DNA from: Sphingomonas sp.
GTDB lineage: Bacteria; Pseudomonadota; Alphaproteobacteria; Sphingomonadales; Sphingomonadaceae
DNA length: 64,000 nucleotides
Reading direction: 5' to 3'
Assembly (NCBI RefSeq): GCF_017304615.1
Contig: NZ_JAFKLZ010000003.1
Location: 248,001 to 312,000, forward strand
This document shows, in pieces, positions 25,650-45,696 of the stretch (position 1 is its first letter; every line of letters begins with the position of its first letter). The notes below the pieces were generated by a model. The model did not search any database. It was not told where the DNA came from and saw nothing but the letters and a program-made list of their open reading frames with translations. Position numbers and translations under genes: made by a program.

Positions 25650-25664
25650 GGCGACGATGTAACC
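25650..25664 (-). promoter_or_regulatory. Shared motif GGTTACATCGTC, copy 1 (relaxase operon)
   Basis: The minus strand reads GGTTACATCGTCGCC, starting 42 bases before the small gene that precedes the relaxase. After 13 further bases comes GGCATCCTCG, and the same pair with the same 13-base spacing is found at the parB copy (43988). Similar placement before four operons of the element argues for an operator or promoter element. Confidence 0.6.
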
Positions 25665-25832
25665 GGCCGGTTCGTTGAGAGATGATGCGCGCGATCTTCG
25701 TCGTTCGACACGCGGAATACATCCGATTTGGCGCTGATGGTGCAATCTCGCCAAGCCGCGTCTATGTAACATGGTGTAAACAGGTTAGTTTGGCGCGAAG
25801 ACGTCGGAGGCAAAGCGACGATACGGGGGCGG

Positions 25833-27791
25833 ATGTTTCTAGCTGATAGCGAGACCAAGATCGATCTCCTCAACAACGAGGCGATCGCTCAATCGATCAT
25901 CGCCCTGCTGAGGGAGAGACCCGGTCGTCCGGTGACGATCGGCGTGCACGGCGACTGGGGCGCCGGCAAATCGAGCATCCTGGAAATGATCGAGGCCGGG
26001 ATGGTGAGCCACGATCGCGCGCTCTGCATCAAGTTCAACGGCTGGCGGTTCCAGGGGTTCGAGGACGCGAAGATCGCGTTGATCGAGGGCATCGTGACCG
26101 CGCTCGTCGAGAGCCGATCGCTGCTCGCCAAGGCCGGCGAGACGGTCAAGGAGGTCTTCAAACGGATCGACTGGTTGAAGGTCGCGCGCCACGCGGGCGG
26201 CCTCGCCGTCACCGCTGTCACAGGGTTGCCGACACCCGATCAGATCGGCACGATCGTCTCTACCTTGAAGGGCTTCGCGAGCGACCCGATGAAACTCGCG
26301 ACGAAGGAGAATTACGACGGTGTCATCGACAGCGTCGAAGGCCTGCTCAAGCCCGCGAAGTCGAAACACGTGCCCGAGGAAATCGAGGAATTCCGCAAGG
26401 CGTTCGATGACCTGCTGGAGAAGGCGGGGATCGACCAGCTCGTCGTCCTGATCGACGATCTGGACCGCTGCCTGCCGGACACGGCCATCGAGACGCTCGA
26501 GGCGATCCGTCTGTTCGTGTTCACTGACAACACCGCGTTCGTCGTCGCGGCCGACGAGGCGATGATCGAATATTCGGTTCGCAAGCACTTCCCCGATCTG
26601 CCGGACACGACAGGGCCGCGCGATTACGCGCGCAATTACCTCGAGAAGCTCATCCAGGTGCCGTTCCGCATCCCGGCCTTGGGCGAGGCCGAAACGCGCA
26701 TCTACGTCACCCTGCTGTTGGTCGGCACCGAGCTCGGGGAGGACGATGAAGGTTTCACGGAACTGATCAACGCGGCGCGCGACCTGCTGCGTCGTCCGTG
26801 GACCAATGCGGGCCTGGATGCAGAGACGGTCAAGAAGGCGCTGGGCGATAAAGCCGGTGCAGCGCAGAACGCGATCACGCTGAGCGACCAGATCGGGCCG
26901 CTGCTGGCGAGCGGGACGCAGGGTAATCCACGGCAGATCAAGCGGTTCCTCAACGCGCTGCTGCTGCGCCAGCACATCGCGGGAACGCGCGGGTTCGGCA
27001 AGGACATCGGGCTGCCGGTGCTCGCCAAGCTGATGCTCGCCGAGCGTTTCATCCCGCGGTTCTTCGACCAGATCGCAAGCGCCGCCGCCCGCGATCCCGA
27101 CGGCAAGTGCGAGGATCTGGCGGCCCTGGAAAAGACGCCGGAAGAGCCGCCGTCCGCCGTGGCCGAGGCCGGTCCGAAGATCAGGGTCGTCGATCCCAAG
27201 CCGGCATCCCGCGACAAGCCGAAGGCCGACAGCGAGCAGGTGATCGAATGGCGCGGCTCGGAGGCGATCCGAGATTGGGCGAAGCTGACTCCCGGCCTAG
27301 CTGGCGTCGATCTCCGGCCTTACTTGTTCGTCGCCAAGGATCGGAAGGACTATTTCGGCGCGACCTCCGCGCTAGGCCGATTGACTGCCGTCGTCGACAA
27401 GCTGTTGGGGCCGAAAATCCTCGTCCAGGGTCTCGAGCCCGAGTTGAAACAACTCGCGCCCGCAGAGGCCGGGCAGGTCTTCGAAGCACTACGGTCGCGG
27501 ATCATGGGTAGCGATGCGTTCGATACCGCGCCGGCCGGGATCGACGGCGTGGGCGTGCTGGTCAGGGCGCATCCTACCCTGCAAGGAAACTTGGTCGATA
27601 TGCTGGAGGCGCTTCCCGCCGCGCGCTGCGGACCCTGGCCGGCGCAGGGCTGGACCGGCGTGATCGTCTCGACCGAGGCGAAGACGCGGTTCGACGCGTT
27701 GGTGAAGGTTTGGTCGCAGTTGGACGGTAAGTCCGGTCTCAAGACGACGGCGACGGCGGCGCTGCGCACACCCACGCGGAGGGGCGGCTGA
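25833..27791 (+). CDS. qatA: QatA: KAP-family P-loop NTPase of Qat defence system
   Basis: A 652-aa KAP NTPase, the ATPase of the four-gene Qat anti-phage system. Walker A is HGDWGAGKSS (Lys at residue 46) and Walker B is VVLIDDLDR (about 205-212), with a hydrophobic insertion between them (around residues 120-145) as in other KAP proteins. The C-terminal 200 residues are family-specific. The stop overlaps the next ATG by one base (TGATG). The order ATPase, unknown protein, QueC-like, TatD-like fits qatABCD exactly. How the NTPase senses infection is not known. Confidence 0.92.
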   Translation: MFLADSETKIDLLNNEAIAQSIIALLRERPGRPVTIGVHGDWGAGKSSILEMIEAGMVSHDRALCIKFNGWRFQGFEDAKIALIEGIVTALVESRSLLAKAGETVKEVFKRIDWLKVARHAGGLAVTAVTGLPTPDQIGTIVSTLKGFASDPMKLATKENYDGVIDSVEGLLKPAKSKHVPEEIEEFRKAFDDLLEKAGIDQLVVLIDDLDRCLPDTAIETLEAIRLFVFTDNTAFVVAADEAMIEYSVRKHFPDLPDTTGPRDYARNYLEKLIQVPFRIPALGEAETRIYVTLLLVGTELGEDDEGFTELINAARDLLRRPWTNAGLDAETVKKALGDKAGAAQNAITLSDQIGPLLASGTQGNPRQIKRFLNALLLRQHIAGTRGFGKDIGLPVLAKLMLAERFIPRFFDQIASAAARDPDGKCEDLAALEKTPEEPPSAVAEAGPKIRVVDPKPASRDKPKADSEQVIEWRGSEAIRDWAKLTPGLAGVDLRPYLFVAKDRKDYFGATSALGRLTAVVDKLLGPKILVQGLEPELKQLAPAEAGQVFEALRSRIMGSDAFDTAPAGIDGVGVLVRAHPTLQGNLVDMLEALPAARCGPWPAQGWTGVIVSTEAKTRFDALVKVWSQLDGKSGLKTTATAALRTPTRRGG

Positions 27792-28672
27792 TGGGAACGT
27801 CGAGCGCATTCGGCGGCGCCGGCGGGGGCACGCCTCTCGTCCCGAGCTGGGTCGATGGTGGCGGCGCCGCGCCGGCCACGCCGGCGTCCACACCAGCCGC
27901 TCCGACCGCGCCGGCACCGGCGCCGGTTCAGACCCCGGCCGCCCCGGCGGCTCGGCCGGCCCCGACCGCGGCGCCGGGCGGCGCTCGACGGTTCAGTGAC
28001 GCGCGCCGGAACTTCTCGTCCTTCACCGGCTCCGGCGGGTCGGACCGACGCAGCCTCGGCAGGGCGGTATCGCAATACGTCTCGCGAAGTTCGGGCGGAG
28101 CGGGAAACGCCGCGCGCAAGATGGGATCGTCCCGCGCGTCGGCGGCCAGGCTCGCGGGTTTCCTCGGCGACGTCCGCCGCGGCGGGCTCGTGCAGGCGCT
28201 CCGCTCGCTCGATCTCGGCGCGTTAGCCGGGCAGCCGATCGAGCGCGTCTTCGCGGATCTCGCCGACTATATCTGCCCGGAAGGCGGATCGATCGACGAG
28301 GGCATCGCGCGCGAGGCGTTCATCGAAACCGTCGCCGAACTGGCCTCGGCCGGTATCCACGATCTCGACACGCTGACGCCGGCGCAGACGCAGACGGTGT
28401 TCGAGCTCTACGCCGCGCATACGATCGAGGCCCGGATCTGCAACGACATCGGCACGAAGATGGTGACTCTGCCGACGAGCGCGGCGGCAGCCGAGCGGGT
28501 GCAGGCGCAGCTGCACGACTTCATCCTGCGCGGCGTGAGCGACGCATTGGCGACAATCGGAACGGACATCGGTACGCTGACGCCGGATCGCGTCAACGAC
28601 TTCGTCGGCGGCGTCTACCAATCCGCATTCGAGGTTCTCGAAGCGCTCGGCGAGGCGGAGGCGGAACGATGA
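27791..28672 (+). CDS. qatB: QatB: Qat system protein of unknown function
   Basis: A 293-aa protein in the qatB position. The first 80 residues are low-complexity, rich in Pro, Ala and Gly (GGAGGGTPLVPSW, APTAPAPAPVQT), probably a flexible linker. The remainder is helical (LAGFLGDVRRGGLVQALRSL, AFIETVAELASAGIHDLDTL). Sequence alone gives no enzyme motif. It overlaps the qatC start by four bases, indicating tight coupling. Assignment rests on length, the disordered N-terminus and gene order. Confidence 0.85.
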   Translation: MGTSSAFGGAGGGTPLVPSWVDGGGAAPATPASTPAAPTAPAPAPVQTPAAPAARPAPTAAPGGARRFSDARRNFSSFTGSGGSDRRSLGRAVSQYVSRSSGGAGNAARKMGSSRASAARLAGFLGDVRRGGLVQALRSLDLGALAGQPIERVFADLADYICPEGGSIDEGIAREAFIETVAELASAGIHDLDTLTPAQTQTVFELYAAHTIEARICNDIGTKMVTLPTSAAAAERVQAQLHDFILRGVSDALATIGTDIGTLTPDRVNDFVGGVYQSAFEVLEALGEAEAER

Positions 28673-30018
28673 ACCGGCATGTGATCATAGGGCGGTTCGG
28701 GGATGAAGATCGGCAGCGAGTTCCGTCAGCCAGGGACGAGGTCGTAACGAGCCTACAACTCGCGGCCGGCAAGACGATCCGTTACGGGATCGGCCACGCG
28801 TTGAACGATCTGCGGGCTCTCGGTTTGGTACCGAGCGATATCGGCATCGATTTCATGGTGCTGGCCGCCCACGTCCACGCCGCCGACACCCGCCTGTCGC
28901 GTGCGTCCGAATCCCAGGACGGCTGGACACGCGAGATCAGGCTCGTCGTGCCCGTCAGCGACCCCGCGCGCTGGACGGCCGCCGCCGAGATCGTCCGTCG
29001 CGCGCTCGACTTCCTGACCGGCGACAGGTGGACGATTGGGTTCAGGGCGCGGCCAAAACCATTCCAAGACATCGCGCTGCCGCTCCCACCGGCTTTGCTC
29101 GACAGCCCTTATGATGGCATCAGCCTGTTCTCCGGCGGTCTGGACAGCCTCATCGGGGCGATCGACCGCCTCGAAGACAGCAAGACGCCGCTGCTCGTCA
29201 GCCACGCCGCCGAAGGCGCGGTGAGCAAGTCGCAGGACGATTGCTACAAGGCGCTGAAACAGGCTTACAATGCCAACCCCTTCGAACGGCTTCGGGTGTG
29301 GATGAGCTTCGACGGCAACCTGGTCGACGGTGTCGCCGCCGAACACACCACGCGAGGGAGGTCGTTCCTGTTCTTCGCGCTCGGCGTCTGTGCCGGCACC
29401 GCGCTCGGCAAACCGTTCACGCTGCAGGTGCCCGAGAATGGCCTGATCGCGCTGAACGTGCCGCTCGATCCACTCCGGCTCGGCGCGCTCAGCACGCGCA
29501 CCACGCATCCGTTCCACATCGCGCGGTGGAACGAATTGCTCGGCGCGATCGGCGTGCCAGGTAAACTCCACAATCCATATTGGGACAAAACCAAGGGCGA
29601 GATGGTTGGCGGATGCGCCAACCAGGCGCTGCTCGATTCGATCTCGGCCGCTTCGCTGTCCTGCTCGTCGCCGGCCAAGGCGCGCTGGCAGGGTCTACCG
29701 CAAGGTCATTGCGGATATTGCCTGCCCTGCTTGATCCGCCGCGCGTCGCTATTTGGCCGCGACAAGACCACCTACAGCTTGCTGGACTTGAACGCGCGCA
29801 AGCTCGACACCGGCCAGGCCGAAGGCCAACAGGTCCGCTCGTTCCAGATCGCGATCGATCGTCTCGCCAAGCGGCCGGAACTCGCGTCGCTCCTGATTCA
29901 TAAGTCCGGTAGCTTGCGCGATGTGGCGGCGAATGTGGACGCACTCGCCGGCGTCTACGGCCGCGGGTTGGCCGAGGTCGGCCGATTGCTGGCTGGCGTC
30001 ACGGCGGGTCCGCGCTAA
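28669..30018 (+). CDS. qatC: QatC: QueC-like PP-loop protein of Qat system
   Basis: A 449-aa protein with a QueC-like domain. The PP-loop ATP pyrophosphatase motif SGGLDS is at residues 155-160, and a four-cysteine zinc site is formed by C332 and the CGYC-x2-C group (C348, C351, C354). QueC makes 7-cyano-7-deazaguanine in tRNA modification; here, with the KAP ATPase and TatD-like nuclease genes, it belongs to the Qat defence system, where a deazaguanine or nucleotide-modifying step is inferred. The 150-residue N-terminal extension is specific to the defence family. Confidence 0.92.
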   Translation: MNRHVIIGRFGDEDRQRVPSARDEVVTSLQLAAGKTIRYGIGHALNDLRALGLVPSDIGIDFMVLAAHVHAADTRLSRASESQDGWTREIRLVVPVSDPARWTAAAEIVRRALDFLTGDRWTIGFRARPKPFQDIALPLPPALLDSPYDGISLFSGGLDSLIGAIDRLEDSKTPLLVSHAAEGAVSKSQDDCYKALKQAYNANPFERLRVWMSFDGNLVDGVAAEHTTRGRSFLFFALGVCAGTALGKPFTLQVPENGLIALNVPLDPLRLGALSTRTTHPFHIARWNELLGAIGVPGKLHNPYWDKTKGEMVGGCANQALLDSISAASLSCSSPAKARWQGLPQGHCGYCLPCLIRRASLFGRDKTTYSLLDLNARKLDTGQAEGQQVRSFQIAIDRLAKRPELASLLIHKSGSLRDVAANVDALAGVYGRGLAEVGRLLAGVTAGPR

Positions 30019-30026
30019 CAAGCGGC

Positions 30027-30776
30027 ATGCCTGACACCGCCCTCGTCGATTTCCATTGCCATCTCGACCTCTACCCCGACTTCGAAGCGGCGGTCGCCGC
30101 GTGCGAACGCGAGGGCGTCTATACGCTGACTGTGACGACGACGCCGAAGGCTTGGTCTCGCAACCACGCCGTCACGTCGAAGACCAAGTACGTGCGCGCG
30201 GCGCTCGGACTTCACCCCCAGTTGGTCGGCGAGCGAGCATCGGAGATCGCGTTGTGGGAAGCGCTGCTACCATCCACTCGTTATGTCGGCGAGGTCGGCC
30301 TGGACGCGGGACCGCGCTTCTACAAAACCTTCGACGCTCAGCAGCGCGTGTTCGAGCGGGTGCTGCTGGCGTGCGCCGCCGCGGGGAACAAGATTCTCAC
30401 CATCCATAGCGTTCGGGCGGCGAGGCAGGTGCTGGACATGATCGAGGAGCATCTTCCGCGCGGGGCCGGCACACCGGTCCTGCACTGGTTCACCGGCACG
30501 GTGGCCGAGGCGCGCCGGGCGACCGAGCTCGGATGTTATTTCTCGGTCAACGCCGCGATGATGACCGACGAGAAACGGCGGGCATTGGTGGCGGCATTGC
30601 CGGTCGACCGGTTGCTTACTGAGACCGACGGCCCTTTCACGAAGAAAGGCGAGCGCCCATCGGCGCCAGTGAACGTCATCGACGCGGTTTTCGGGTTGGC
30701 GGAGCTCTTGAATGTTCCACCAGTCGAGATGGCCAGGATGATCCGCGCGAATCTGCGAAGAATGCTTGGAGAATGA
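30027..30776 (+). CDS. qatD: QatD: TatD-like metal-dependent hydrolase of Qat system
   Basis: A 249-aa TatD-family nuclease. Metal ligands are visible in order: FHCHLD (H10, H12), the GEVGLD glutamate near residue 90, ILTIHS, VLHWFTG and LTETDGPF with its aspartate. It starts eight bases after qatC. TatD enzymes cut DNA from the 3' end; in Qat it is a required fourth component. A TIR gene follows on the same strand, 82 bases downstream, and could be read from the same transcript. Confidence 0.92.
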   Translation: MPDTALVDFHCHLDLYPDFEAAVAACEREGVYTLTVTTTPKAWSRNHAVTSKTKYVRAALGLHPQLVGERASEIALWEALLPSTRYVGEVGLDAGPRFYKTFDAQQRVFERVLLACAAAGNKILTIHSVRAARQVLDMIEEHLPRGAGTPVLHWFTGTVAEARRATELGCYFSVNAAMMTDEKRRALVAALPVDRLLTETDGPFTKKGERPSAPVNVIDAVFGLAELLNVPPVEMARMIRANLRRMLGE

Positions 30777-30858
30777 AGGCACGCACCCCGATGTTGAAAT
30801 GCTATTTCGGCGATCTTGCGCCTTATGATGGCGAGCAAGCCAGGGACAAGGATGTTTG

Positions 30859-31407
30859 ATGGCAAGGTATGTAACCAGAGAAGAGTTGCGCGGTTTTGCG
30901 GCGAACATGCCGATTTCCGAGCAAGCGAGCCTCCGAAAGTCGATGGCATCGCGTAGTCTCGCCGGATCGACCTTCTTGTCGCATTCGAGCAAGGATGAGG
31001 ATCTGGTCATCGGCGCTACTAAGGTGCTCGAGAACCATGGGGCCACGGTCTATGTCGACGAGATCGATCCGGCGATGCCGCCCTATACAAGCGAGAAGAC
31101 TGCGAACTTGCTCAAGCGACGAATCGCGCAGACGCAGCGCTTCGTGTTGTTGGCCAGCCCCAACAGCAAGGAGAGTAAGTGGGTGCCATGGGAACTGGGC
31201 ATCGCGGACGGCGAGAAAGGGCTAGAGCGTATCGCGCTGTTCCCGGCTTCGGACTCGAGCGATGGCTGGGCGAACTGGGAATATCTTGGTCTCTATCGTC
31301 GGATTGCCTGGGGCAAGATGGAAGGCAAGGCCGACTACCTCTGGATGGTCCTGGACGAAAAGCGCAATGAGGCGGTACCGCTCCGAGCTTGGCTCACGGG
31401 AGCGTGA
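30859..31407 (+). CDS. TIR-domain protein, probable Thoeris ThsB-type sensor
   Basis: A 182-aa protein from the ATG at 30859. After a 35-residue leader it has a canonical TIR domain: STFLSHSSKDEDLVI, YVDEID and SKWVPWELG, with the catalytic-position glutamate at residue 112. TIR proteins in Thoeris make a cyclic ADP-ribose signal from NAD+ on infection. The downstream SIR2-SLOG gene supports this role. Unlike the two later TIR genes it belongs to the TIR_2 rather than the MTH538/DUF1863 type. A link to the Qat genes upstream is possible but less likely. Confidence 0.8.
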   Translation: MARYVTREELRGFAANMPISEQASLRKSMASRSLAGSTFLSHSSKDEDLVIGATKVLENHGATVYVDEIDPAMPPYTSEKTANLLKRRIAQTQRFVLLASPNSKESKWVPWELGIADGEKGLERIALFPASDSSDGWANWEYLGLYRRIAWGKMEGKADYLWMVLDEKRNEAVPLRAWLTGA

Positions 31408-31494
31408 TAAGCGTTTAATATTGAACCGGATTGGCGTCGGTCATTCTGGTAACGATGACGTCGCGCCATTATTGCGGACGGAAAGGGGACATCT

Positions 31495-32936
31495 GTGAAA
31501 CCGCACGTCATACGCTTCATCGACGACTATTTCCGCGATCTTGAAACCGGCGATGCCGGAATCTTTGCCGGTGCCGGCCTGTCTGTACCTGCCGGTTTCG
31601 TGGATTGGCGCGATCTGCTGCGCCCGCTTGCCAATGAGATCGACCTCGACATCGCGCGCGAAACCGACATGGTGGCCATCGCGCAGTTCCATGTAAACGC
31701 CAACGGCATGAATCGCGCGCGGTTGCACCGGGCGGTTGTGGAAGCGTTTTCGAGCGATGCGCCGCCGACTGCCAATCATCGGTTGCTCGCGCAACTGCCG
31801 GTCACGACGTGGTGGACGACGAATTACGACAAGCTGATCGAAACAGCGCTTCGAGATGCCGGCAAGATCGTCGACGTGAAATATACGGTGCCGCAGCTTG
31901 CCATCACGGCCCCGCGTCGCGACGCCATCGTCTACAAGATGCACGGCGATGTCGAGCACCCCAATCAGGCCGTGGCAACGCGTGATGACTACGAAGGCTA
32001 TTCGACAACGCGCGGCGCATTCATCAATGCGCTGGCCGGTGATCTTGTGTCGAAAACGTTCTTGTTCCTCGGCTTCAGCTTCACCGATCCCAACCTCGAA
32101 CAGGTGCTATCGCGGATCAGGCTGACATTCCGCCAGGATCAGCGTCGCCACTACGCCATCTTCCGCAACTGCAAGCGGGGGCCTGACGATGACGATGCGA
32201 CCTTCGCCCATGCTCGCGTGCGCCAGGAACTCGTGCTCAAGGATCTCGAACGCTAAATATCAAGGCTGTCCTGGTCGACGAATATGACGAGGTCACCGAG
32301 ATCCTCGAAGAACTCGTACGCCGATACCGACGCCGCACGGTATTCGTATCCGCCAGCGCGGCCGATTTCTCACCTTGGGGTGAGGAGGAGGTCACACAGT
32401 TCATGCGATCGCTTGGCGCCGCTTTGGCGACCGCAGGCCTACGGATCGCGACCGGGCTAGGTTTGGGCGTCGGCAACGCCCTGTTTACCGGAGCGGTCGA
32501 GGAGGTCATCCGCCGTAGGCTCGGGCACATTGAAGACTTGATCGTGGCGCGGCCCTTTCCGCAGGCGATCCCTGAAGCCGAGCGGCAAGCGATGTGGGAC
32601 GCTTATCGGCGCAGCATCATCGGTCAGTCTGGCGTGTCGATCTTCCTGTTCGGCAACAAGGATGTCGGCGGGTCGGTGGTGACCGCCGACGGGATGCGTG
32701 CCGAGTTCAAGATCGCGCAGGAGTTAGGATCGGTAACGATCCCGGTCGGAGCGACGGGCTCGATGGCGGAAACGCTCGCCGCCGAAACACTTGCCGCGCC
32801 CGACGATGTGGTTGCGCTGCTCGGTGACGCGGGTGCGGCTGCCATCAAGAAGCTGGCCGAGCCGACCGATTACTTGCAGTCGTTGGTGAAGCCGATCGTC
32901 GAGTTGGTTGGCACGCTGAAGGCGGGTCAGCGATGA
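31495..32936 (+). pseudogene. thsA: ThsA-type SIR2-SLOG NADase, split by a one-base frameshift
   Basis: Frame 1 from GTG 31495 encodes 253 residues of a SIR2 NADase with FAGAGLSVPAG, TTNYD (N110) and KMHGD (H150), the residues needed for NAD+ cleavage in Thoeris ThsA, and stops at TAA 32254-32256. From about 32256, the next frame continues at once with NIKAVLVDEYDE and a SLOG domain (TVFVSASAADFSPW, GLRIATGLGLGVGN), the sensor of the cyclic signal, ending at 32936. The two halves fit one ~480-aa ThsA if one base is restored near 32254. The SLOG half has no in-frame start before ATG 32403, which lies inside the domain. So the gene is either dead in this strain or carries a sequencing error. 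Confidence 0.82.
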
Positions 32937-33042
32937 CGACCGGGTGCGGCGTAAAACGACATTGGCGTTCCTAGCGCGTCCGCTTTGAACGCGTGCGCAC
33001 CCACAGGTTAGCAACCATCAACAAGGCGATAGGATCGAAGAC

Positions 33043-33522
33043 ATGGCCAAGAAATGCTTTCTGAGTTTCCACTACAAGCCGGATAATTGGCGCGTATCTC
33101 AGGTGCGCAATATGGGCGCGATCGAGGAACAGCCGCTGCTCGCCGCGAACGAGTGGGAGGAGATCGAAAAAAAGGGCGACAAGGCGATCGAGGACTGGAT
33201 CGAGAAGCATATGAAGGACAAGCAGTGTCTTGTCGTGCTGGTTGGCGAGAAGACCGCCGGGCGCCCCTGGGTCAAATACGAAATCAAGAAGGCTTGGAAA
33301 GATGGTAAGGGCGTCGTGGGCATTCGCATTCACGGGCTGAAAGATGCGGCGGGCAATCAGGCGAAGATCGGTGGTGATCCGTTCGCCGGCCTGACCGTCG
33401 ACGGAGGCCCCATCGTGGGTGTCGTGCACGACACGCCGTACTCGACGAGCAAATATGTCTATGATCATATCAAGGACAATATCGACGACTGGGTCGATGC
33501 CGCGATCAAGGCGCGTAAGTGA
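33043..33522 (+). CDS. thsB: TIR-like (MTH538/DUF1863) protein, ThsB-type
   Basis: A 159-aa protein of the ThsB family. It opens with AKKCFLSFHYKPDNWR and VRNMGAIE, the signature of the MTH538 TIR-like domain, then QCLVVLVGEKTAGRPWVKYEI with the conserved glutamate at residue 80. ThsB converts NAD+ to the cyclic signal that activates the SIR2-SLOG effector encoded just upstream. It lacks membrane segments and is the size of a bare domain. It is one of three TIR-fold genes around a single thsA, a known arrangement that widens the range of phages sensed. Confidence 0.85.
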   Translation: MAKKCFLSFHYKPDNWRVSQVRNMGAIEEQPLLAANEWEEIEKKGDKAIEDWIEKHMKDKQCLVVLVGEKTAGRPWVKYEIKKAWKDGKGVVGIRIHGLKDAAGNQAKIGGDPFAGLTVDGGPIVGVVHDTPYSTSKYVYDHIKDNIDDWVDAAIKARK

Positions 33523-34902: not shown

Positions 34903-34911
34903 GTATCCCCG

Positions 34912-34941: not shown

Positions 34942-34950
34942 AATGACGCC

Positions 34951-36488: not shown

Positions 36489-36509
36489 TCAACTCGAAGG
36501 AGAACAACG

Positions 36510-36886: not shown

Positions 36887-36887
36887 T

Positions 36888-37658
36888 ATGGCCGCCGATA
36901 ACATCCAGACCGTCGTGACGAGTCCATTCGTCTACGAGGACACTGCCGCGACCCGGGCCGGGATCGCGGCGGTGTCGGCGCGGCTTGCGGGCGGGAGGAT
37001 CGCGATCATCGGGTTGGGCGGCACCGGCTCCGAAGTGCTCGACCTGATCAGCAAGACGCCGTGCGAACGCATCCTGCTATTCGATAGCGACCGCGTCGAA
37101 CAACACACTGCGTGGCGCGCGCCCGGCGCGATGTCGTACATCGATACCGTGGCCGAACGGCACAAGGTCGAACACTACGCCGAAGTGTACGGTCGTATGC
37201 ACAAAGGCATCCGCCGATATGCGGAAGATCTCAACCCGGATAACGCCTATTTGCTCGACGACGTGGATTTCGTGTTCGTCTGCGTCGACAGCGTCCGCGC
37301 CCGCGCGGTCATCATCCCCGAGCTCGAGCAACGCGATCTGCCGTTCATCGACTGCGGCCTCGGGCTCCGGTTGGTCGACGATCGCATATTGGGACAGGTT
37401 CGCGTGACGACCAGCACGCCGACGATGCGCGCGCACGTCCGCGACAACGGACGCATCCCGATGACGGGCAGCGACGACGATGAACTCTATCGCAGCAACA
37501 TCCAGGTCGCCTGCCTCAACCGGCTTGCAGCCACGCTGGCGGTCATTCAGTACAAGCAATTGAGAGGCTTCTACGCCGACACGCAGGCTGAATATACCTG
37601 CGTTTATTCGGTCGACGGTAACACCATCGTCAACGCGGACCAGTCGGCGCCGCGATGA
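36888..37658 (+). CDS. ThiF/E1-like adenylyltransferase for the ubiquitin-like protein
   Basis: A 256-aa E1-type enzyme. The nucleotide-binding Rossmann motif is IIGLGGTGSE (residues 40-49), followed by the acidic ILLFDSDRVE (D66, D68) and VFVCVDSVRAR and FIDCGLGLRL; cysteines at 132 and 156 are candidates for the thioester-forming residue. ThiF/E1 enzymes adenylate the C-terminus of a ubiquitin-like protein, and the coding of one just upstream strongly supports that pairing. No E2 or JAB peptidase gene was found beside it, so conjugation could be minimal or finished by unrecognised neighbours. Confidence 0.85.
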   Translation: MAADNIQTVVTSPFVYEDTAATRAGIAAVSARLAGGRIAIIGLGGTGSEVLDLISKTPCERILLFDSDRVEQHTAWRAPGAMSYIDTVAERHKVEHYAEVYGRMHKGIRRYAEDLNPDNAYLLDDVDFVFVCVDSVRARAVIIPELEQRDLPFIDCGLGLRLVDDRILGQVRVTTSTPTMRAHVRDNGRIPMTGSDDDELYRSNIQVACLNRLAATLAVIQYKQLRGFYADTQAEYTCVYSVDGNTIVNADQSAPR

Positions 37659-37668
37659 CGATGCGATG

Positions 37669-38502
37669 CTACCGCTGTTGCAACAGGAGCGCACCGCTGG
37701 CGGCGAGACGGTAGATGTCGGCGACCTCGCGTTCCGTCGCGCGCCACGGGAACCGAGGATCGGCGCCGCGTGGCACGGAGGCCCAGGCGGCTTCTGGGAC
37801 CGGCGCGAGCGGCTGCCAGACGGTTTCGAGTTTGACGATCGCGTCGTCGCCGTCGTTGCGCACCCCTTCGACCATGACATCGAAGTCTGCCAAGAACGGA
37901 TGTTCGATGATCTCTGCGGCGCGCCGGCGATCGTTCCGGGTCGGGTCTTTTTCCAGCGCGGTGACGATCGTCTCCGGCAAATGCTGCCGCCGGAGCCTAA
38001 TCGTCGCTTTGTCTCCCAGCACCGCGACGGCTGGCACCCGATGCGACAGCTCGATCCGTTCGGCCACGGCCTGGCCCCCACTTACGCGGATCTTGACCGC
38101 CATGTGACCGAGTTCGCGCCGCGCCCGCCGCGCGAAACGGCCGAAGATCGGGGCGGTGCCCACTTGATCAGTGAGGCTCAAGGTCTTGGCCAGGGCGCGG
38201 TCGGTCCGCGACCAGGCGAGCCATTTGGCGAGCACCGACGATCCCGATACCAGCCACAGCGGCACGCCGGTCTCGCCCGCGGCGTCGACCATCGCGGTGG
38301 CGCGCTCGAACGCGATACGCGCTTCGATCGCCGAAGCGAGTTGCTCGAAGGCGTGAGGCGATCCGTCGCTAATCGCGATGGTCGTGCCGCCGATGCTTGC
38401 GTCAATACGGTCTTGATCGTCAATGATCGCGACGCCCGTCGGATCGACCATCGCTATCATCGCCTCGACGATCGCGTGCGGCGTCTCGGGTTTGCCGCTC
38501 AT
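37669..38502 (-). CDS. Hypothetical protein, convergent with E1
   Basis: A 277-aa protein of no recognised family, read towards the E1 gene (ten bases between stops). It has two regions: an N-terminal one with VAIIDDQDRID and WLVSGSSVLAKWLAW, and a C-terminal one with IIEHPFLADFDVMVEGVRND. The start at 38502 is preferred for its upstream GAGG, but ATGs at 38529 and 38535 are also in frame. It is divergent from the operon starting at 38644, and the shared motif copy 2 lies between. It may be a substrate or regulator of the adjacent system; this is a guess. Confidence 0.6.
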   Translation of the reverse strand: MSGKPETPHAIVEAMIAMVDPTGVAIIDDQDRIDASIGGTTIAISDGSPHAFEQLASAIEARIAFERATAMVDAAGETGVPLWLVSGSSVLAKWLAWSRTDRALAKTLSLTDQVGTAPIFGRFARRARRELGHMAVKIRVSGGQAVAERIELSHRVPAVAVLGDKATIRLRRQHLPETIVTALEKDPTRNDRRRAAEIIEHPFLADFDVMVEGVRNDGDDAIVKLETVWQPLAPVPEAAWASVPRGADPRFPWRATEREVADIYRLAASGALLLQQR

Positions 38503-38590
38503 TTCGGGGTGACCTCGGCCATCGCGCATGGCCATAGCGCGGTCGCACGGTCGTTGCCCACCATCGTCGGATATTTGCCGAAATCGACGC

Positions 38591-38602
38591 GGTTACATCG
38601 TC
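38591..38602 (+). promoter_or_regulatory. Shared motif GGTTACATCGTC, copy 2 (operon at 38644)
   Basis: A perfect 12-base copy beginning 53 bases before the ATG at 38644. The divergent gene at 37669-38502 also starts nearby, so either or both could be controlled. Flanks differ from the other copies, so the conserved core itself appears to be selected. Confidence 0.6.
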
Positions 38603-38643
38603 ACGGCAGTTTTGCCGCGTCACGCTGTCTTTCGGAGGCAGCC

Positions 38644-39504
38644 ATGGCAGATGACGTTCCTAAAAACTATCCAGCATTGATCGCGGCGATCGACGACGAA
38701 ATCGCCCAGGCGCGCGGACTCGTTGCCGGTGCGAAAGCGCAAATCCTCGCGCTCGATGACGAACAGGCGGCGCTCGGGCATCACCCTCATTATGCGATCT
38801 ATCGTCATGGCGGCATCGCCGCCGTGCGCGACATGGGTGTCGCGCACATTTTCGCGCATGCCGGCTTCTACCGGCTGCCATATGAAGAGGCGATCGCGCG
38901 ACTGGCCGATGCGCGCCACGAAGTCGATCACGACTGTCTGATCATCGCATTGAAGTACGTCTGCGAGAGTGATCCATTGCTTGAGATCACGGGCCTCGCC
39001 TGGCTGGAAGAACAGGATCTGCTCAAACGCGGTGGTCTCGACCCGTTTTGGGTCAAGCGGCCTAAATTAGGCTTGGGATATCCGGCGAAGCTCCATGCGC
39101 TGACCGCAGCGGACGCTGAGCCGCATCGTGGCCTCTATACGCTGACCCCGTCCGACCTGCGCGATCGCTTCGCCGCGGCCACCGATACGCCCGACGACAC
39201 GTTCGGTGATCTGCTACCGATGGTGATCGCGGCCGGCGGCGCGGCGCTGGCGGCGATCGGTGGCGCGGCGAGTGAAGCGGACGCCGCCGATCGCTATCGG
39301 GCAAACTGCGCCAGCTTCGCCGCACACCAGCGCGCGACCGGTGATCGCCGCTGGCGGTGGAAACCGCCTCTCTCGCGCCAGGGGCACCACGCCCGGACCA
39401 TCGCTGACCTCAACGAAGTTCCCATGCCCGCCGAGCGCACCCGCGGCCACGCGGCCAACTGGCTCGACGACAACGGCGCCAACCCACGGTTCCGGGAACG
39501 CTGA
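38644..39504 (+). CDS. Hypothetical protein, first gene of unknown operon
   Basis: A 286-aa protein starting at the ATG at 38644 behind CGGAGGCAGCC. Residues 1-60 form a charged helical start (LIAAIDDEIAQARGLV, DDEQAALGHHPHYAIYRHGG); a His-rich stretch follows (GVAHIFAHAGFYRLPYEEA), which could bind metal but matches no known catalytic pattern. The C-terminus is basic. No family was recognised. It is the first of a same-strand run of five or six genes carrying the shared motif upstream. Confidence 0.6.
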   Translation: MADDVPKNYPALIAAIDDEIAQARGLVAGAKAQILALDDEQAALGHHPHYAIYRHGGIAAVRDMGVAHIFAHAGFYRLPYEEAIARLADARHEVDHDCLIIALKYVCESDPLLEITGLAWLEEQDLLKRGGLDPFWVKRPKLGLGYPAKLHALTAADAEPHRGLYTLTPSDLRDRFAAATDTPDDTFGDLLPMVIAAGGAALAAIGGAASEADAADRYRANCASFAAHQRATGDRRWRWKPPLSRQGHHARTIADLNEVPMPAERTRGHAANWLDDNGANPRFRER

Positions 39505-39506
39505 TC

Positions 39507-39797
39507 GTGGCGCGCATCATCATCACCGAGGACGGCCGTGAGAAGATCGTTACCGACATCGCACCGTACCGCGCCGAGCGCAAGGCGGTGTTGGCGAAGC
39601 TCGCACCCATCTACGACGGGTTCGAAAAGGGTCCGGTCGACGCACTCGCATCGCGCGAGGAGGAAATCGTCGATCTCGCCAATCGTTACAACGAACTCAC
39701 CGACCTCATCGAGCGGTTCGACGAGGCGACAACGCGCCGCGCCAACATCCTTGCCGGCTGGGAGATCGTGAAGCAGCACCGGGCTGACGGCGCATGA
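39507..39797 (+). CDS. Hypothetical coiled-coil-like protein, 96 aa
   Basis: A 96-aa, charged, mostly helical protein (AERKAVLAKLAPIYDGF, ANRYNELTDLIERFDEAT) that begins two bases after the upstream stop and overlaps the next gene by four bases. It has no recognised family. Coupling on both sides makes it likely to be a subunit or antitoxin-sized partner of the large protein that follows. Confidence 0.55.
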   Translation: MARIIITEDGREKIVTDIAPYRAERKAVLAKLAPIYDGFEKGPVDALASREEEIVDLANRYNELTDLIERFDEATTRRANILAGWEIVKQHRADGA

Positions 39798-42172
39798 TCC
39801 GCGCCCTGCTCGACGCCGACGTCCGTATGCTGAGCGCCGCGCTGATCGCCAACGAGGCGATCGGTCGACCTCATCTGATCACCGCGACCGGCCGCTCCGC
39901 GCCGAGCCGGTACGCGATTGTGCCACCCGGGATCGGCGCCCGGTTCGCCCTGATGCCCGGCGTCGACTTCGACGACGTGACCGACGAGCGCCCCGGTGGC
40001 GGGTTCGTCGGGGGACGCTTGTCACGGTTCGCGCCCTTCCTCGACGCGGACGCGTCCGCGTCGATCGGCCCGTTACAGGTCACGTTGCGTCCGATCCCGA
40101 TGACCCGCGACGCGATCCTGCGCGAACTGCGTATGTCGGCTGGTCTCGCCTGGGCGCCGGGTGCGCTATACGCATTGGTCGGCTGGGAGGACGAGTGGGT
40201 CGCGGCGTGGGCCGACCGGTTGCGCGAAGACGGGCTCGAGGCGCGGCTGATCATCGCGCACGCGCAAGCGATGCTGGCATTGCGCAAGATGTGGCTGGCG
40301 GTGGTCTGGAACGCACCCAGCCGCCCGGTATCCGGCCATCTCGCAGCGACATCGGGCGCCGTCGCCGTCGGCCGGGCGCTGATCGACGTGATCGCGGTCA
40401 TCGAGCGCCTGCGCCGCGCCGCCCGGGACGACGGCGGGACCACGACATACACCGACCAGGCGATCGCCCGGCTGGTCGCCGGGCTGCAGCACGTCCTGCG
40501 CCATCTGAAGGCAGCCGACAACAGCAATTCGCCCGACACCATCGGGCGCAAGCTGCGGCGGACGATAAAATGGGCGAAAATCCTGCTCGACGCCGTCGCG
40601 GTGTTTTCGGTCGGTCCCGAGCCGCTTCGCCAGCGCTGGTATCGGCTGAACGCGGCGTTGAAGAAGGTCACACCGAGTGACCATGCGGGGCCGCTCGAGC
40701 CCCTGCTCGCCCGGATCGCCGCCGATCTCGAAGAACTCGGCTGTGCCAATTTGGGGTCGCGGCTGCAGGCGACTGGATGGCGTGCGCACATCCGGCGCAC
40801 GCTCCACCGGCTCGGCGAACCCGACGTCGCCGTCCGGATGGCGCGGCTCGACCGTGTCCGCGGCGACCTCATCTACACCCTCGCGATCACCGGGCGGCTC
40901 GAGCGACTATACGATCTGTTCCCGTGGTTGGCAGCGCCGCACGGCGCGTTCTCGGGTTGTGCCGGCGGCGCGCTCGGTGCGCTCGCATCGCTGTTCGAAT
41001 GCGGCCGGATGATGCAGCTAGCGCGCGACCTCAAACGGCGACTGAACGATGCCGAGGCCGGTTGCTCCACGGTCGCGCGGCTGACGTTTAGCGAGATGCG
41101 CGTCATCCTCGCCTCGTCCACCGCGACGTTCGTCGCGGTCGATCGCGGCCACGCGGCGGGCGCCGAATTGGTGCGACAAGGATTCAGCCACGCCACCGTC
41201 CAGAGCGCGCTCGCCGGCTCGATTTTTGGCCCGCATGCCGCGCTGACCCACGCGCAGCAGGCGCGCCTCGGCTGGAACGACGCTGCCGCCTATCGCGATT
41301 GCGCCCGCACCGTCACCGCGACGGAGGCGGTCGGTGACAGCCTGCCGTTCGCCCGCCGGGACCATGACGACGACGTATCCCGTCACATGGGGATGACGGT
41401 CTTGCGCCTGATCAATGCCGGTATCTGCTCGATCTTCCCGACGATGGCGCTCGAGCCGCATCGTGCGCTCGCCGAGGATGCGGCGCGCAAGGCGGGCCGT
41501 CCTCGCGCCTTTACGATCAAGCCGGATGAAGCACGTGTCGCGATGCAGGACGCGATGCTCGCAAGCCTCGATCGCGATCCCGCGCCGGACGCACCGCTTC
41601 ACGACGGCATCGCCGATAACGCGATCCCCGACGACGATCGCTTCCACGAAGTGGTCCGAGCGCAAAATCTACAATCGGGGCCGACGCGCACATCGTCCGC
41701 ATTCGACGGCCATCACGTCGGTCAGGGGCGCCGGCGCGTCGCGTTCAACGAACCCGTCAACAGCGATCCGCGCGGCGAATTGCTGCGCGCGTTGATCGAC
41801 GAGACCCGACGCTGGAGCGAGCCCGACAAGCGCAGCGACCGTCGCGCCCCTTGCGACGATCTGCTCGAGGACGTCCTGCGCGGGCGGGCGCCGCACCCGC
41901 TCGCACAACCGGTCTCGGACCTGTTCCTGCCGATATTGTGGTTTGCGCCATACATAGACCAGCCGTTGCTCGGCTGGATCGGAGCGGGTGCGCCGGCCGC
42001 GCGTGGCTGGTGTGGCGGCCATGCCGCGGTCAGCGTCGAGGTCGGACGTGCCCATGCTTGGGCGCCGTCGCTTTACGCTTATCCGTTCCTGCACGGTCGC
42101 GACGACCGGATCGCCTGCCACCTGTTCACCGGCAGCTCCCCGATCACCTGGGATCTCGGTCATGCCCGATAA
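39794..42172 (+). CDS. Large unknown protein, 792 aa
   Basis: The largest unassigned protein of the element. It is Arg- and Ala-rich throughout, with an N-terminal strand region (ALYALVGWEDEWVAAWADRL), a long helical middle and C-terminal segments WFAPYIDQPLLGWIG and GRAHAWAPSLYAYPFLHG that look folded. No Walker, nuclease, protease or membrane motif could be identified, and it is not repetitive. It overlaps the small gene before it, suggesting that both function together. It deserves structure prediction; no function is proposed. Confidence 0.6.
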   Translation: MIRALLDADVRMLSAALIANEAIGRPHLITATGRSAPSRYAIVPPGIGARFALMPGVDFDDVTDERPGGGFVGGRLSRFAPFLDADASASIGPLQVTLRPIPMTRDAILRELRMSAGLAWAPGALYALVGWEDEWVAAWADRLREDGLEARLIIAHAQAMLALRKMWLAVVWNAPSRPVSGHLAATSGAVAVGRALIDVIAVIERLRRAARDDGGTTTYTDQAIARLVAGLQHVLRHLKAADNSNSPDTIGRKLRRTIKWAKILLDAVAVFSVGPEPLRQRWYRLNAALKKVTPSDHAGPLEPLLARIAADLEELGCANLGSRLQATGWRAHIRRTLHRLGEPDVAVRMARLDRVRGDLIYTLAITGRLERLYDLFPWLAAPHGAFSGCAGGALGALASLFECGRMMQLARDLKRRLNDAEAGCSTVARLTFSEMRVILASSTATFVAVDRGHAAGAELVRQGFSHATVQSALAGSIFGPHAALTHAQQARLGWNDAAAYRDCARTVTATEAVGDSLPFARRDHDDDVSRHMGMTVLRLINAGICSIFPTMALEPHRALAEDAARKAGRPRAFTIKPDEARVAMQDAMLASLDRDPAPDAPLHDGIADNAIPDDDRFHEVVRAQNLQSGPTRTSSAFDGHHVGQGRRRVAFNEPVNSDPRGELLRALIDETRRWSEPDKRSDRRAPCDDLLEDVLRGRAPHPLAQPVSDLFLPILWFAPYIDQPLLGWIGAGAPAARGWCGGHAAVSVEVGRAHAWAPSLYAYPFLHGRDDRIACHLFTGSSPITWDLGHAR

Positions 42173-43442: not shown

Positions 43443-43963
43443 GCGAGGTCTGGAACAGCGTGAGGGTGTACGGTCCGTCGTCGGAGATCGCACGCTTCAA
43501 GCGGCTCTGCATCGAACCGTCCCAGGCTAGCAATACCTGCGATCACGACGGGTGGAACGGATGTGATTGCGTTATCAACGTCCCGGCGAACGAGCAGAGC
43601 CGCAATCAACATTCTGGCTATGTCTGGAATTTCCATCATGAGGATGTCCCGGGGAGCAACCGCTACTCGTTCAACTTCGACACGGAAATCGGATTTCCGG
43701 TCGATCTGTTCGAGCGCATCGCGACCGCGTTCCCGGCGCTCGCATTCGACTGCGACTGCATCCACGGCATGGACGAGTTCATGGGGTATGGTTGGTTCAA
43801 CACGCCGGCCGGTGGCGAGGATTTCAGCCAGCATTACCCCGGCCCGGCGGATCATTGGACGTCGGGAAGCGGGCACAAACGCGACCATGCCGCCCAACTG
43901 AAGCACGAGGCCCTCATTGCCGAACTCGAACGAGCCGCGCGCGCGGCGGATGGTCGATCGTAA
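43439..43963 (+). CDS. Api92/DUF1281-like protein (paralogue 2)
   Basis: A 174-aa paralogue of the protein at 42226. It shares WNSVRVYGPSSEIARFKRLC, the FPALAFDCDC strand and MGYGWFNTPAGGEDFS near residue 120, but has an insertion with extra cysteines (NTCDHDGWNGCDCVI, about residues 38-52) that could bind a metal. The two copies have diverged well below close identity, so the duplication is old. Confidence 0.7.
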   Translation: MSEVWNSVRVYGPSSEIARFKRLCIEPSQASNTCDHDGWNGCDCVINVPANEQSRNQHSGYVWNFHHEDVPGSNRYSFNFDTEIGFPVDLFERIATAFPALAFDCDCIHGMDEFMGYGWFNTPAGGEDFSQHYPGPADHWTSGSGHKRDHAAQLKHEALIAELERAARAADGRS

Positions 43964-43987
43964 GTTCTTTGTTCAAGACATAACGGC

Positions 43988-43999
43988 GGTTACATCGTC
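43988..43999 (+). promoter_or_regulatory. Shared motif GGTTACATCGTC, copy 3 (parB)
   Basis: A perfect copy beginning 65 bases before parB. It extends to GGTTACATCGTCGCC, is followed after 13 bases by GGCATCCTCG, and so matches the relaxase copy in both halves and spacing. An inverted repeat CATCCTCGATT...AATCGAGGATG lies just after it (about 44019-44045), which could be a separate operator or hairpin before parB. Confidence 0.6.
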
Positions 44000-44052
44000 G
44001 CCGCACTTTGTCGTCGGCATCCTCGATTCGTCAGTAATCGAGGATGTGACGC

Positions 44053-44940
44053 ATGGACCCGACCGAACTGCCACTGGACAGCGCCGCTCCCTCCAAGCGC
44101 GGCCAGAAGGCGCAATATGTCGTCGAGCTGCTTGCCTACGACCAGACGACGGTCTCGCCCAAGAACCCGCGGTTCGGCTATATTATCACGGACGAGAGCG
44201 TCGCGCCGCTCGTCGCCGAATTAAAGGCGGTCGGTCAGGCGCACGATGCGATCGGCGAACGAGGACCGGGCGGTATCGTCGAGATCCTCGCCGGCTCGCG
44301 CCGTCGTGAAGGCTGTCGCATCCTTGGTACCCCGTTGCGCGCGCGCGTGTATGACGAAGGTTCCCTGACCCCCGAGCAGGCACTGAAGATCGCCAACCGC
44401 GAGGATCGTGGCGCGCTCGAGGTCAGCCTGTGGGATCGGTCGGCATCATGGGCCAGAATGCTCGACGGCAAGATCGTCACGAACGAGGCGCGCCTCGCCG
44501 ACGCGGTCGGCGAAGACAAGTCGGCGATCAATCGCGGACTGGCGTTGCAGAAAGCGCCAGCCGTCATCCTCGATCTCGTCGCCGACAAACGCGCGATCTC
44601 AATGAGCCAGTGGGCATTGGTCGCCCCATTGCTCGAGGATGACGAATCACGCGCGCGCGTGCTCGAATGCGCGGCGCTCCATGCGGGCCAGACGTTTGGT
44701 TTTACCGCGCTGACCAAAAAGCTCACGGCTGCCGCGGCGGGTAAGGACGAAATCAGGCCGGTCGAAGTCAGGAACCGACATGGCAGGGTCATCGCCACCG
44801 TCGCGCCCGACCACCGCGGGGCGTTCGTGATCCGCGTGAAATCGATGGCCGAGCAGCACCCGAGCTTCCGCCTCGATCACGCCAAGCTGATCCACACGGT
44901 CTTCGTCGACGTCCTCAAGGATTGGTTCGGTGATGGCTGA
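44053..44940 (+). CDS. ParB-family partition protein or ParB-like regulator
   Basis: A 295-aa protein. The N-terminal ParB/Srx-like domain has NPRFGY and LAGSRRREGCRIL (about residues 83-95), and LKIANREDRGALEVSLWDRSASW resembles the ParB box and following helix. A KorB-like helix-turn-helix follows around residues 155-185 (DAVGEDKSAINRGLAL). Such proteins bind centromere-like sites to stabilise elements or act as transcriptional regulators. No ParA gene was seen nearby. It is the best candidate reader of the shared motif, but that is inference. Its stop overlaps the next gene. Confidence 0.78.
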   Translation: MDPTELPLDSAAPSKRGQKAQYVVELLAYDQTTVSPKNPRFGYIITDESVAPLVAELKAVGQAHDAIGERGPGGIVEILAGSRRREGCRILGTPLRARVYDEGSLTPEQALKIANREDRGALEVSLWDRSASWARMLDGKIVTNEARLADAVGEDKSAINRGLALQKAPAVILDLVADKRAISMSQWALVAPLLEDDESRARVLECAALHAGQTFGFTALTKKLTAAAAGKDEIRPVEVRNRHGRVIATVAPDHRGAFVIRVKSMAEQHPSFRLDHAKLIHTVFVDVLKDWFGDG

Positions 44941-45277
44941 GCATTCGCTGTTCGACCGCTCAAACCCCACGGAATTTAGGAGCAAGCAAATGCTTGAATA
45001 TGAAACGCTGACCTTCGGGTCCCTCAAGGTGAAACGCATCCACGCGGCCGTCACGAGTCCGACCCTGCTCGCGCTGCCGGAAGCGGCACGGCCCGTGCCG
45101 CTCCTCGGCTGCACGACCTGCCCACTAGGCAGTTGGTATCTCGACGAGGAGGAGCGCCCCTTCTGCCATTGTGAAGCACGGCGCTACGTATCATGGACGA
45201 CCAACCAGAAGATGATCACGCTGTGCGACGACCGCGAGGTCGCACTGATGGAACAGGCGACGGAACCGGATAACTGA
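44933..45277 (+). CDS. Small cysteine-containing protein, 114 aa
   Basis: It begins inside the last codons of parB (ATG 44933; a GTG at 44930 is also possible). The centre has GCTTCPLGSWYLDEEERPFC, where four cysteines including HCEARRY could bind zinc. No family was recognised. It is probably co-translated with ParB. Confidence 0.65.
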   Translation: MAEHSLFDRSNPTEFRSKQMLEYETLTFGSLKVKRIHAAVTSPTLLALPEAARPVPLLGCTTCPLGSWYLDEEERPFCHCEARRYVSWTTNQKMITLCDDREVALMEQATEPDN

Positions 45278-45283
45278 TGGTCG

Positions 45284-45613
45284 TCAAGCCGGGTTGGTCA
45301 TGAGCGCGTCTGCGATGGCGTAGCCGCGGTGGCTTGAGGCGGGAAACAGGCTGTAATGCGTGGTCATCGCGACCGACAGCCGCAGATGACGCGCCATCAG
45401 TCGTCGCACGCGGCGAGACGGAGCACAGAAAGCCATGTCGTTTGTAGAACCGGGCACCGGGCGTGCCGCCAGCAGTTCGCGGCTGATGCGCAGCGAACAC
45501 CAGCGATAATAAGCGGCCATCATGGTCGCGAGTCCGTCGACCAGCAAGATGACCAGCAATTGGCCGATCTTCAGAGCGGCCAGCGAGCATAGCAGCAACG
45601 TGATTGCGAGCAC
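45284..45613 (-). CDS. Putative small membrane protein, 109 aa
   Basis: The N-terminus is strongly hydrophobic (LAITLLLCSLAALKIGQLLVILLVDGLATMM, about residues 2-32), consistent with one or two membrane helices; the remainder is basic and soluble. It is convergent with the preceding gene. There is no recognised family or ribosome-binding site, so it could be spurious. It is kept because its composition is that of a membrane protein and no other gene explains this stretch. Confidence 0.4.
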   Translation of the reverse strand: MLAITLLLCSLAALKIGQLLVILLVDGLATMMAAYYRWCSLRISRELLAARPVPGSTNDMAFCAPSRRVRRLMARHLRLSVAMTTHYSLFPASSHRGYAIADALMTNPA

Positions 45614-45684
45614 CTTCAGTCTCCCTATTTTTCACCAGCTCAAGCTGGCCCATCTCTCCACTTCTCAGTCTGATTTTTTGCGAC

Positions 45685-45696
45685 GGTTACATCGTC
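45685..45696 (+). promoter_or_regulatory. Shared motif GGTTACATCGTC, copy 4 (recombinase operon)
   Basis: A perfect copy beginning 43 bases before the GTG of the small gene at 45728. Here the surrounding bases form GCGACG-GTTACAT-CGTCGC, a 6-bp inverted repeat around the core. A T-rich stretch (GATTTTTTGCG) lies just upstream. Confidence 0.6.

Follow-up and report, generated by a model that had tools for sequence, protein, structure and literature searches.

The stretch analysed here (the window) comprises 64,000 nucleotides of a Sphingomonas sp. genome (contig NZ_JAFKLZ010000003.1, positions 248,001 to 312,000). It carries a probable integrative and mobilizable element (IME), recognised by a relaxase gene, a site-specific recombinase gene and integration at a tRNA gene, in which four operons are each preceded by a perfect copy of the 12-base word GGTTACATCGTC (the box). 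The first-pass annotation, made from the sequence of the window alone, had listed these copies and proposed a shared operator; an exact scan confirmed their coordinates, strands and places before the four operons. Copy 1 (25653..25664, minus strand) precedes the relaxase operon, which consists of a leader open reading frame (ORF) of 75 amino acids (aa), orf25622 (25395..25622, minus strand), and the relaxase gene (22284..25394, minus strand). The other copies and their genes are on the plus strand. Copy 2 (38591..38602) precedes orf38644 (38644..39504), orf39507 (39507..39797) and orf39794 (39794..42172). Copy 3 (43988..43999) precedes parB (44053..44940), which encodes a ParB-like protein, and orf44930 (44930..45277). 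Copy 4 (45685..45696) precedes orf45728, a 73-aa leader ORF (45728..45949), and a large serine recombinase gene (45897..47627). Measured from the first base of the word, the start codons lie at 42 (orf25622), 53 (orf38644), 65 (parB) and 43 bases (orf45728). All four copies are intergenic relative to the genes accepted as real; longer, mechanically called ORFs span each of them (25395-25772, 37666-39504, 43917-44309 and 45522-45890).

An exact-word scan of the whole 3,341,277-base genome found four matches, all inside this element, and the reversed word gave none. Copies elsewhere in the genome had been named beforehand as evidence against an operator; no fifth copy exists. The copy number expected from base composition is 0.25 for the genome and 0.005 for the window; a second-order Markov model gives about 0.006 for both strands of the window, which bears out the earlier estimate of a chance occurrence far below one. 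When up to two mismatches were allowed, 14 matches were counted in the window against a mean of 4.1 in shuffled sequences, and at least 14 were reached in 0 of 100 shuffles. One mismatch gave six further places in the genome (four for the reversed control), one of which is in the window outside the four sites. Pairing of the word with an RNA was considered and rejected, as the genome holds no further copy of the word or of its complement. A literature search with the 10-mer GGTTACATCG was also made; among the matches listed, the titles had no tie to Sphingomonas elements.

Related elements were found by protein searches with the parB and orf38644 products. With ParB, 55 of 151 genomes of the genus gave a match at E <=1e-3, and only eight places in seven genomes reached E <1e-60. 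With the orf38644 product, matches were found in 23 of 295 genomes of the genus (13 places at E <1e-130), in 2 of 397 genomes of the family, in 10 of 396 genomes of the order and at nine loci of a species-genome collection; a homolog was found neither in 72,556 plasmid records nor, by pattern scan, in viral contigs. Carriers include Sphingomonas sp. AR_OL41, 3P27F8 and BK345 and S. adhaesiva DSM 7418, whose locus L060 has the box at four operons. Twelve distinct elements were used: the window, G541a, G541b, G072 and G079 (group A) and G082, G063, G000b, G622, G666, G042 and G005 (groups B/C). Near-copies of G079 (in G610) and of G000b (in a Qipengyuania metagenome-assembled genome, MAG) were kept out of the counts. 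G000b, a diverged member of the family, is the second such element in the genome from which the window comes, where it occupies about 664-680 kb of G000:C8 (loci L044 and L045). Its copy in the Qipengyuania MAG (L059) is near-identical, with ParB and the orf39794 product 99% identical, which suggests that the element crossed between genera recently, provided that the MAG is correctly binned. The genes orf38644 (47-72% identity in the 11 other elements), orf39794, parB and orf44930 were found in 12 of 12 elements, orf39507 in all but G005 (10 of the 11 others) and the relaxase gene in nine, the fetched stretches of G541a, G541b and G072 being without it. No description of this Sphingomonas element family was found in a literature search, in the parts of the sources that were accessible.

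Each of the 11 related elements carries box versions before these operons, as far as it is readable. A 41-position matrix was built from 13 sites of the other four group A elements, with the window left out. It scored the extended sites of the window at 32.4 bits (relaxase operon, 25627-25667), 36.6 bits (orf38644 operon, 38588-38628), 43.8 bits (parB, 43985-44025) and 37.9 bits (recombinase operon, 45682-45722), and no other place in the 64 kb above 10.7 bits. In leave-one-out scans of the other group A elements, their own sites came out on top (21-50 bits; best other place 16.0 bits, in G541a), and two extra sites appeared, one in G072 upstream of an orf43439-like gene (39.8 bits) and one in G079 upstream of a 260-aa ORF (22.6 bits). 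Over 19 group A sites from five elements, conservation is seen at positions -1 to 12 (C GGTTACATCG Y C G), T19, T20 and T21 (100, 95 and 84%) and C30 and A31 (95 and 100%). The flanks are thus related, contrary to the earlier view that they otherwise differ. That view had made one exception, a second block, GGCATCCTCG, 13 bases after the relaxase and parB copies. The block is present in both, 16 bases after the 12-mer; the 13-base gap holds only when counted from the 15-mer GGTTACATCGTCGCC that the two copies have in common.

The pattern GGTTACATCGTC-N7-TT was matched 16 times in 9 of the 295 genomes of the genus, against one match for the reversed control. Twelve matches are in these elements (G610 included). 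Of the four others, three fall within open frames 242-455 aa long, those in G597 and G643 being alike; the fourth, in G044, belongs to a cluster of GGTTACAT words, and open frames (146 and 217 aa) extend across it as well. At this last place, outside the present element family, three GGTTACAT-type words in both orientations occur within about 50 bases (L105, about 1460-1512). The layout of four operons with boxes is also present in the diverged B/C elements, where the box at the same places reads GGACTTACATCGCTA in G082 and G063 and is a variant of GACTNNCRTSGCTG in the others. The B/C sites before orf38644 and parB were first spotted by eye and the relaxase sites by eye or with a loose pattern; all were then scanned with leave-one-out matrices. 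The fourth site, upstream of a serine recombinase gene and the small ORF ahead of it, came from the matrices in G082, G063, G000b and G005. Two whole-genome pattern matches outside the fetched DNA, in G622 and G042, were selected for their position downstream on the element's contig, and each directly precedes a leader ORF, a serine recombinase gene and a tRNA gene. The same or a drifted box thus stands at matching gene starts in homologous elements, whose failure to conserve it would have spoken against the proposed operator; together with the confinement of the word to the element, this supports a shared operator at promoter-like places.

Sites of different genes within one element resemble each other more than the sites of one gene in different elements do. 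Mean identity was 0.839 (51 pairs) for the former and 0.621 (196 pairs) for the latter, a result reached in 0 of 5000 label permutations. The comparison comprised 41 sites of the 12 elements; the recombinase sites of G622, G042 and G005 and the two extra group A sites were left out. Joint drift was also seen within B/C (0.825 vs 0.718, 0 of 5000 permutations), within C (0.781 vs 0.717, 1 of 5000) and within A (0.860 vs 0.829, 2 of 5000). Such drift suggests, at the level of sequence, one reader protein encoded by each element. The window element and G000b, which share one genome, have differing box versions, and the sites of the window were not among the six best places that the B/C matrix gave there. 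Two box versions in one genome argue against a regulator of the host.

The distance between the box and the gene start is nearly fixed. With start codons chosen by homology and Shine-Dalgarno sequence, the orf38644 start lies 53 bases from the first box base in five of five group A elements and 58 in the six B/C elements measured (G063, which has ATA there, was left out), and the parB start 64-70 bases from it in 12 of 12 elements. At the relaxase and recombinase sites, an ATG or GTG without a Shine-Dalgarno-like word stands at +42 to +44 in 19 of 20 cases (recombinase 11 of 11, relaxase 8 of 9); offsets of 42-45 were inspected, and the chance for a three-base stretch is about 0.08. In the window these are the starts of orf25622 (+42) and orf45728 (a GTG at +43). 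In seven of the eight other elements tested, an ORF of 50-55 aa begins at +43 or +44 of the relaxase box, and leader ORFs range from 44 to 75 aa over the elements. The relaxase and recombinase mRNAs are probably leaderless, with starts at +42 to +44, and in that case the box spans about -43 to -32. We infer that the invariant A31, at about -12 to -11, holds the place of the conserved A in the -10 hexamer, here CAYNCT. In the window, the stop codon of the relaxase leader adjoins the start of the relaxase frame; leader and frame of the recombinase overlap there as well as in G541a and G541b, which suggests that translation of leader and downstream gene is coupled in these three elements. A separate feature was seen at orf38644, whose Shine-Dalgarno sequence lies in a hairpin (stem 7, loop GAAG; L040:4575-4592, and the same place in L041, L044, L059, L098, L058, L046 and L048). 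Paired changes conserve it: in eight B/C sequences 98.2% of the cells are paired, with six double changes, and slid controls were paired at 62.5% at most; a counterpart lies near 38626-38642 of the window. This hairpin may instead be a DNA dyad, because the predicted transcription start would cut through it.

The parB product was examined as a candidate reader of the box. It belongs to the ParB/Spo0J/KorB family, with an N-terminal CTPase-type domain and a helix-turn-helix; its match to the NCBIfam model parB_part (TIGR00180) is 2.4e-10, below the curated cut-off. Profile matches in the PDB are Spo0J and Noc, and its predicted model (mean predicted local distance difference test score, pLDDT, 83.7) resembles the structures of Noc, ParB and KorB, with E values as low as 2e-8. 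PF13614, the sole ParA model used, had no match in the fetched element stretches of eight genomes (G079 and G666 left out), and a ParABS system with its ParA partner in the same element was thus not found. Relatives of this ParB in plasmids were limited to four plasmid records, at 27-29% identity. The box is no inverted repeat, and the idea that the boxes are palindromes of the parS type was rejected, as the four boxes, where these were looked for, have no common inverted repeat. Directly after parB, orf44930 encodes a small Cys-rich protein with five invariant Cys in 12 rows, a candidate partner without a family above cut-off in NCBIfam, PHROG and Pfam scans. Five distant modules (G675, G059, G031, G135 and G615) with homologs of the relaxase, of orf38644 or of both had neither a repeated box nor a parB match in the 15-20 kb fetched. 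The joint absence lends weak support to a link between ParB and the box; drift of the box, or a parB beyond the fetched stretch, would also account for it. A single word, GGTTTCACG, before orf38644 in G675 and G059, of which a second copy was not found, may be a drifted box. Overall, the chances that ParB, the orf44930 product or the two together read the box are about even.

As far as sequence comparison can tell, the status of the box as a shared regulatory site is strongly supported and that of an element-encoded reader well supported; the box is very probably a shared regulatory site read by a protein of the element. In the model proposed, one element-encoded transcription regulator would bind the box, placed at about -43 to -32 in each of four promoters, and would thereby link the operons for mobilization (relaxase), for orf38644-orf39507-orf39794, for parB-orf44930 and for excision and integration (serine recombinase). 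The box would overlap the -35 region, the CA at +30/31 would fall on a weak -10, and the regulator would activate in the manner of class II activators. As no -35 is recognisable, the regulator is probably an activator; the near-fixed distance of the box to the probable leaderless starts likewise suggests that the box belongs to the promoter and that an activator is likelier than a repressor. We consider activation rather likelier than repression as the mode of control, and activation by an element-encoded regulator at the box slightly better placed than an even bet. The least supported step is the identity of the reader, which would be the orphan ParB-like protein, perhaps together with the Cys-rich product of the gene that follows; parB would then activate itself. 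More speculatively, and with rather low probability, an orphan ParB with its Cys-rich partner would be a promoter-specific initiation activator: at non-palindromic boxes it would stand in for recognition of a -35, and the mRNAs that it drives would be leaderless. Each lineage would have evolved its own insulated code of protein and box, so that two elements could share one genome without cross-talk.

Several observations weigh against activation of four operons by a ParB-like reader. ParB, KorB and SopB sites are palindromic, and the box, unlike the KorB operators and the others, is not. A relation of the orf44930 product to BisC, the partner of the ParB-like BisD in ICEclc, was not supported, with an hhalign probability of 0.2% against three DUF2857 proteins (a weak test, since the same run aligned the window ParB poorly with BisD-like ParBs) and no Pfam match above cut-off; PF11198 (DUF2857) had no match in G000. 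The sites of the drift comparison were partly picked by similarity, a bias that goes towards the general consensus and not towards the own element. In G079, a start codon is missing at +42 to +45 of the relaxase box, and a search for a box at orf39794, which in this element has moved next to the relaxase gene, found none. No E. coli-type sigma-70 promoter was found in 43900-45900, where 0.2 are expected by chance and the E. coli consensus is a weak guide. The relaxase box was readable in nine elements (not in G541a, G541b and G072), and the recombinase box was not readable in G666. The loose B/C pattern GACTNNCRTSGCTR was not enriched in seven whole genomes (33 matches, 15 of them in the elements, vs 53 for the reversed control), and in B/C matrix scans unrelated places scored above some sites: 17.1 bits in G000b (relaxase site 12.3), 18.6 bits in G042 (relaxase site 13.4) and 14.2 bits in G005 (recombinase site 13.7). 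The box of these groups is therefore recognised by place and spacing.

The same box could be a repressor operator. A regulator of the element, either ParB-like and acting as KorB does or of another kind, would then sit on the -35 to keep the four operons low until a signal comes, parB being self-repressed. The position of the box over the expected -35 suits this explanation, and all the comparative evidence for a shared site fits it equally. KorB, a relative of ParB, does repress, from operators whose distance upstream of the promoter is 4-10 bp or ranges from 45 bp to more than 1,000 bp, according to the accessible text of PMC11790492. Against it, on weak evidence, a good core promoter could not be seen apart from the box; moreover, the box-start distance is nearly invariant, as expected for an activator or a core promoter element, whereas KorB operators stand at variable distances (PMC11790492, accessible text). 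Repression is rather unlikely, if still the strongest of the alternatives.

The near-fixed distance to the start and the two further conserved blocks, with no other -35 seen, could also mean that a dedicated sigma factor, or an initiation factor of another kind, uses the box as its -35 element, with the CA at +30/31 in the -10 and no separate activator. The core, at 12-14 letters, is longer than a -35 usually is, and no sigma family was found among the core proteins scanned, of which the familyless products of orf38644, orf39507, orf39794 and orf44930 could include one; this explanation is improbable. A regulator of the host or of a helper plasmid, in the way that AcaCD of IncC plasmids activates promoters of SGI1, is more improbable still. 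The element probably depends on a helper, since the ORFs scanned in the window include no recognisable transfer apparatus, and IMEs borrow helper activators (PMC4207636, PMC4605294, as far as their accessible parts go). The word is nevertheless absent from the rest of the genome, the window and G000:C8 elements carry different versions of it, and the plasmid collection gave only chance-level DNA matches (E 0.1 or worse among the matches listed). With no orf38644 homolog in plasmids or viral contigs, and ParBs in plasmids at 27-29% identity only, the link to a helper plasmid was rejected.

The model of an element-encoded activator was compared with known systems. In ICEclc, an integrative and conjugative element (ICE) of Pseudomonas, the ParB-like BisD beside its partner BisC is the master activator and promoters share a motif: a reporter was activated only by BisD and BisC together (PMC7423338), and a 27-bp sequence motif is common to eight of nine bimodal promoters (PMC9286271), as stated in the accessible parts of these papers. 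The present system differs in that the partner is no DUF2857/BisC relative by profile comparison, in that no ParA was found in these elements, whereas ICEclc has parA in the bisDC region (PMC7423338, accessible part), and in that the box lies at a near-fixed distance from starts. The likeness would be functional only, as no relation of the partner to BisC was found. In the SetCD/AcaCD regulons of SXT/R391 ICEs, IncC plasmids and the IMEs that follow them, one activator box likewise stands before excision, mobilization and other operons; the SetCD box is found at many ICE operons, immediately upstream of the -35 as for a class II activator (PMC4344509, accessible part). No FlhC/FlhD-like protein was found among the core proteins scanned here, and the present regulator is probably encoded by the element, not borrowed. 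The KorA/KorB operators of IncP plasmids are similar in that a ParB-family protein coordinates replication and transfer genes, and different in being 16 bp long, at variable distance and repressing, according to the same partial source as above (PMC11790492).

The remaining features of the element were analysed as follows. The relaxase (MobA/MobL, MobQ/TraA-like, 1036 aa) matches Pfam PF03389 at 2e-5, just under cut-off, and the NCBIfam models TraA_Ti (2e-11) and MobQ (9e-11), both under cut-off. The orf38644 product had no Pfam or PHROG match and an NCBIfam match at chance level only, and a fold search with its predicted structure (mean pLDDT 75) gave no match. The other conserved core proteins are of 96 aa (orf39507) and 792 aa (orf39794; found in 11 of 11 other elements). 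A T7-type RNA polymerase was considered for the latter, given the fixed promoters and a length of about 800 aa, and rejected: no family and no credible PDB relative were found, and none of the motifs expected of such a polymerase was seen in the sequence. Between copy 3 and the parB start, a perfect 11-base inverted repeat with a 7-base loop (44018..44046, plus strand) overlaps the parB Shine-Dalgarno sequence; similar repeats are visible in G072, G541a and G541b. The recombinase matches Pfam Resolvase (3e-26), Recombinase (1e-11) and Zn_ribbon_recom (2e-14), and its frame runs into a tRNA-Leu(gag) gene called by ARAGORN (47532..47618, minus strand), the probable integration site. A tRNA gene follows the recombinase gene in five of the seven stretches scanned (window, G541a, G541b, G622 and G042; none was called in G072 and G082). 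The recombinase genes abut or enter differing tRNA genes (Leu-gag, Leu-caa, Thr-cgt and Met-cat), and the target may be a feature common to several tRNA genes.

No type IV secretion system or other transfer apparatus was found among the ORFs scanned in 19.6-47.6 kb, a scan that covered part of the ORFs of an element whose left end is not fixed. One imperfect, unproven candidate for this end lies about 3.1 kb left of the window, and no convincing direct repeat marks the right end. The G+C content is 0.49 in 4001-6000 of the window and 0.60-0.69 in 2-kb blocks from 8 kb on. The cargo includes QatABCD genes (25833-30776, near full-length matches) beside Thoeris-type genes (30856-33522), the ThsA match being divided over two ORFs (31495-32256 and 32403-32936). 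In 34846-38535, orf34846, an AAA-type ATPase gene and a gene for a ThiF/E1-like protein are also present in nine of the 11 other elements as fetched, and orf37669 in eight. The ThiF/E1-like protein had only weak E1-E2 defence matches, and the AAA-type ATPase had no defence match.

These results suggest a single element-encoded switch for maintenance, transfer and excision. It would be a compact regulon of an apparently undescribed family of mobile elements, whose member in this genome has two sets of phage-defence genes as cargo. The nearly constant spacing, together with the matched drift of the sites, makes the family a natural experiment on the coevolution of a regulator and its boxes. If ParB is indeed the reader, a promoter-bound role would be given to a protein family known mainly for DNA partition.

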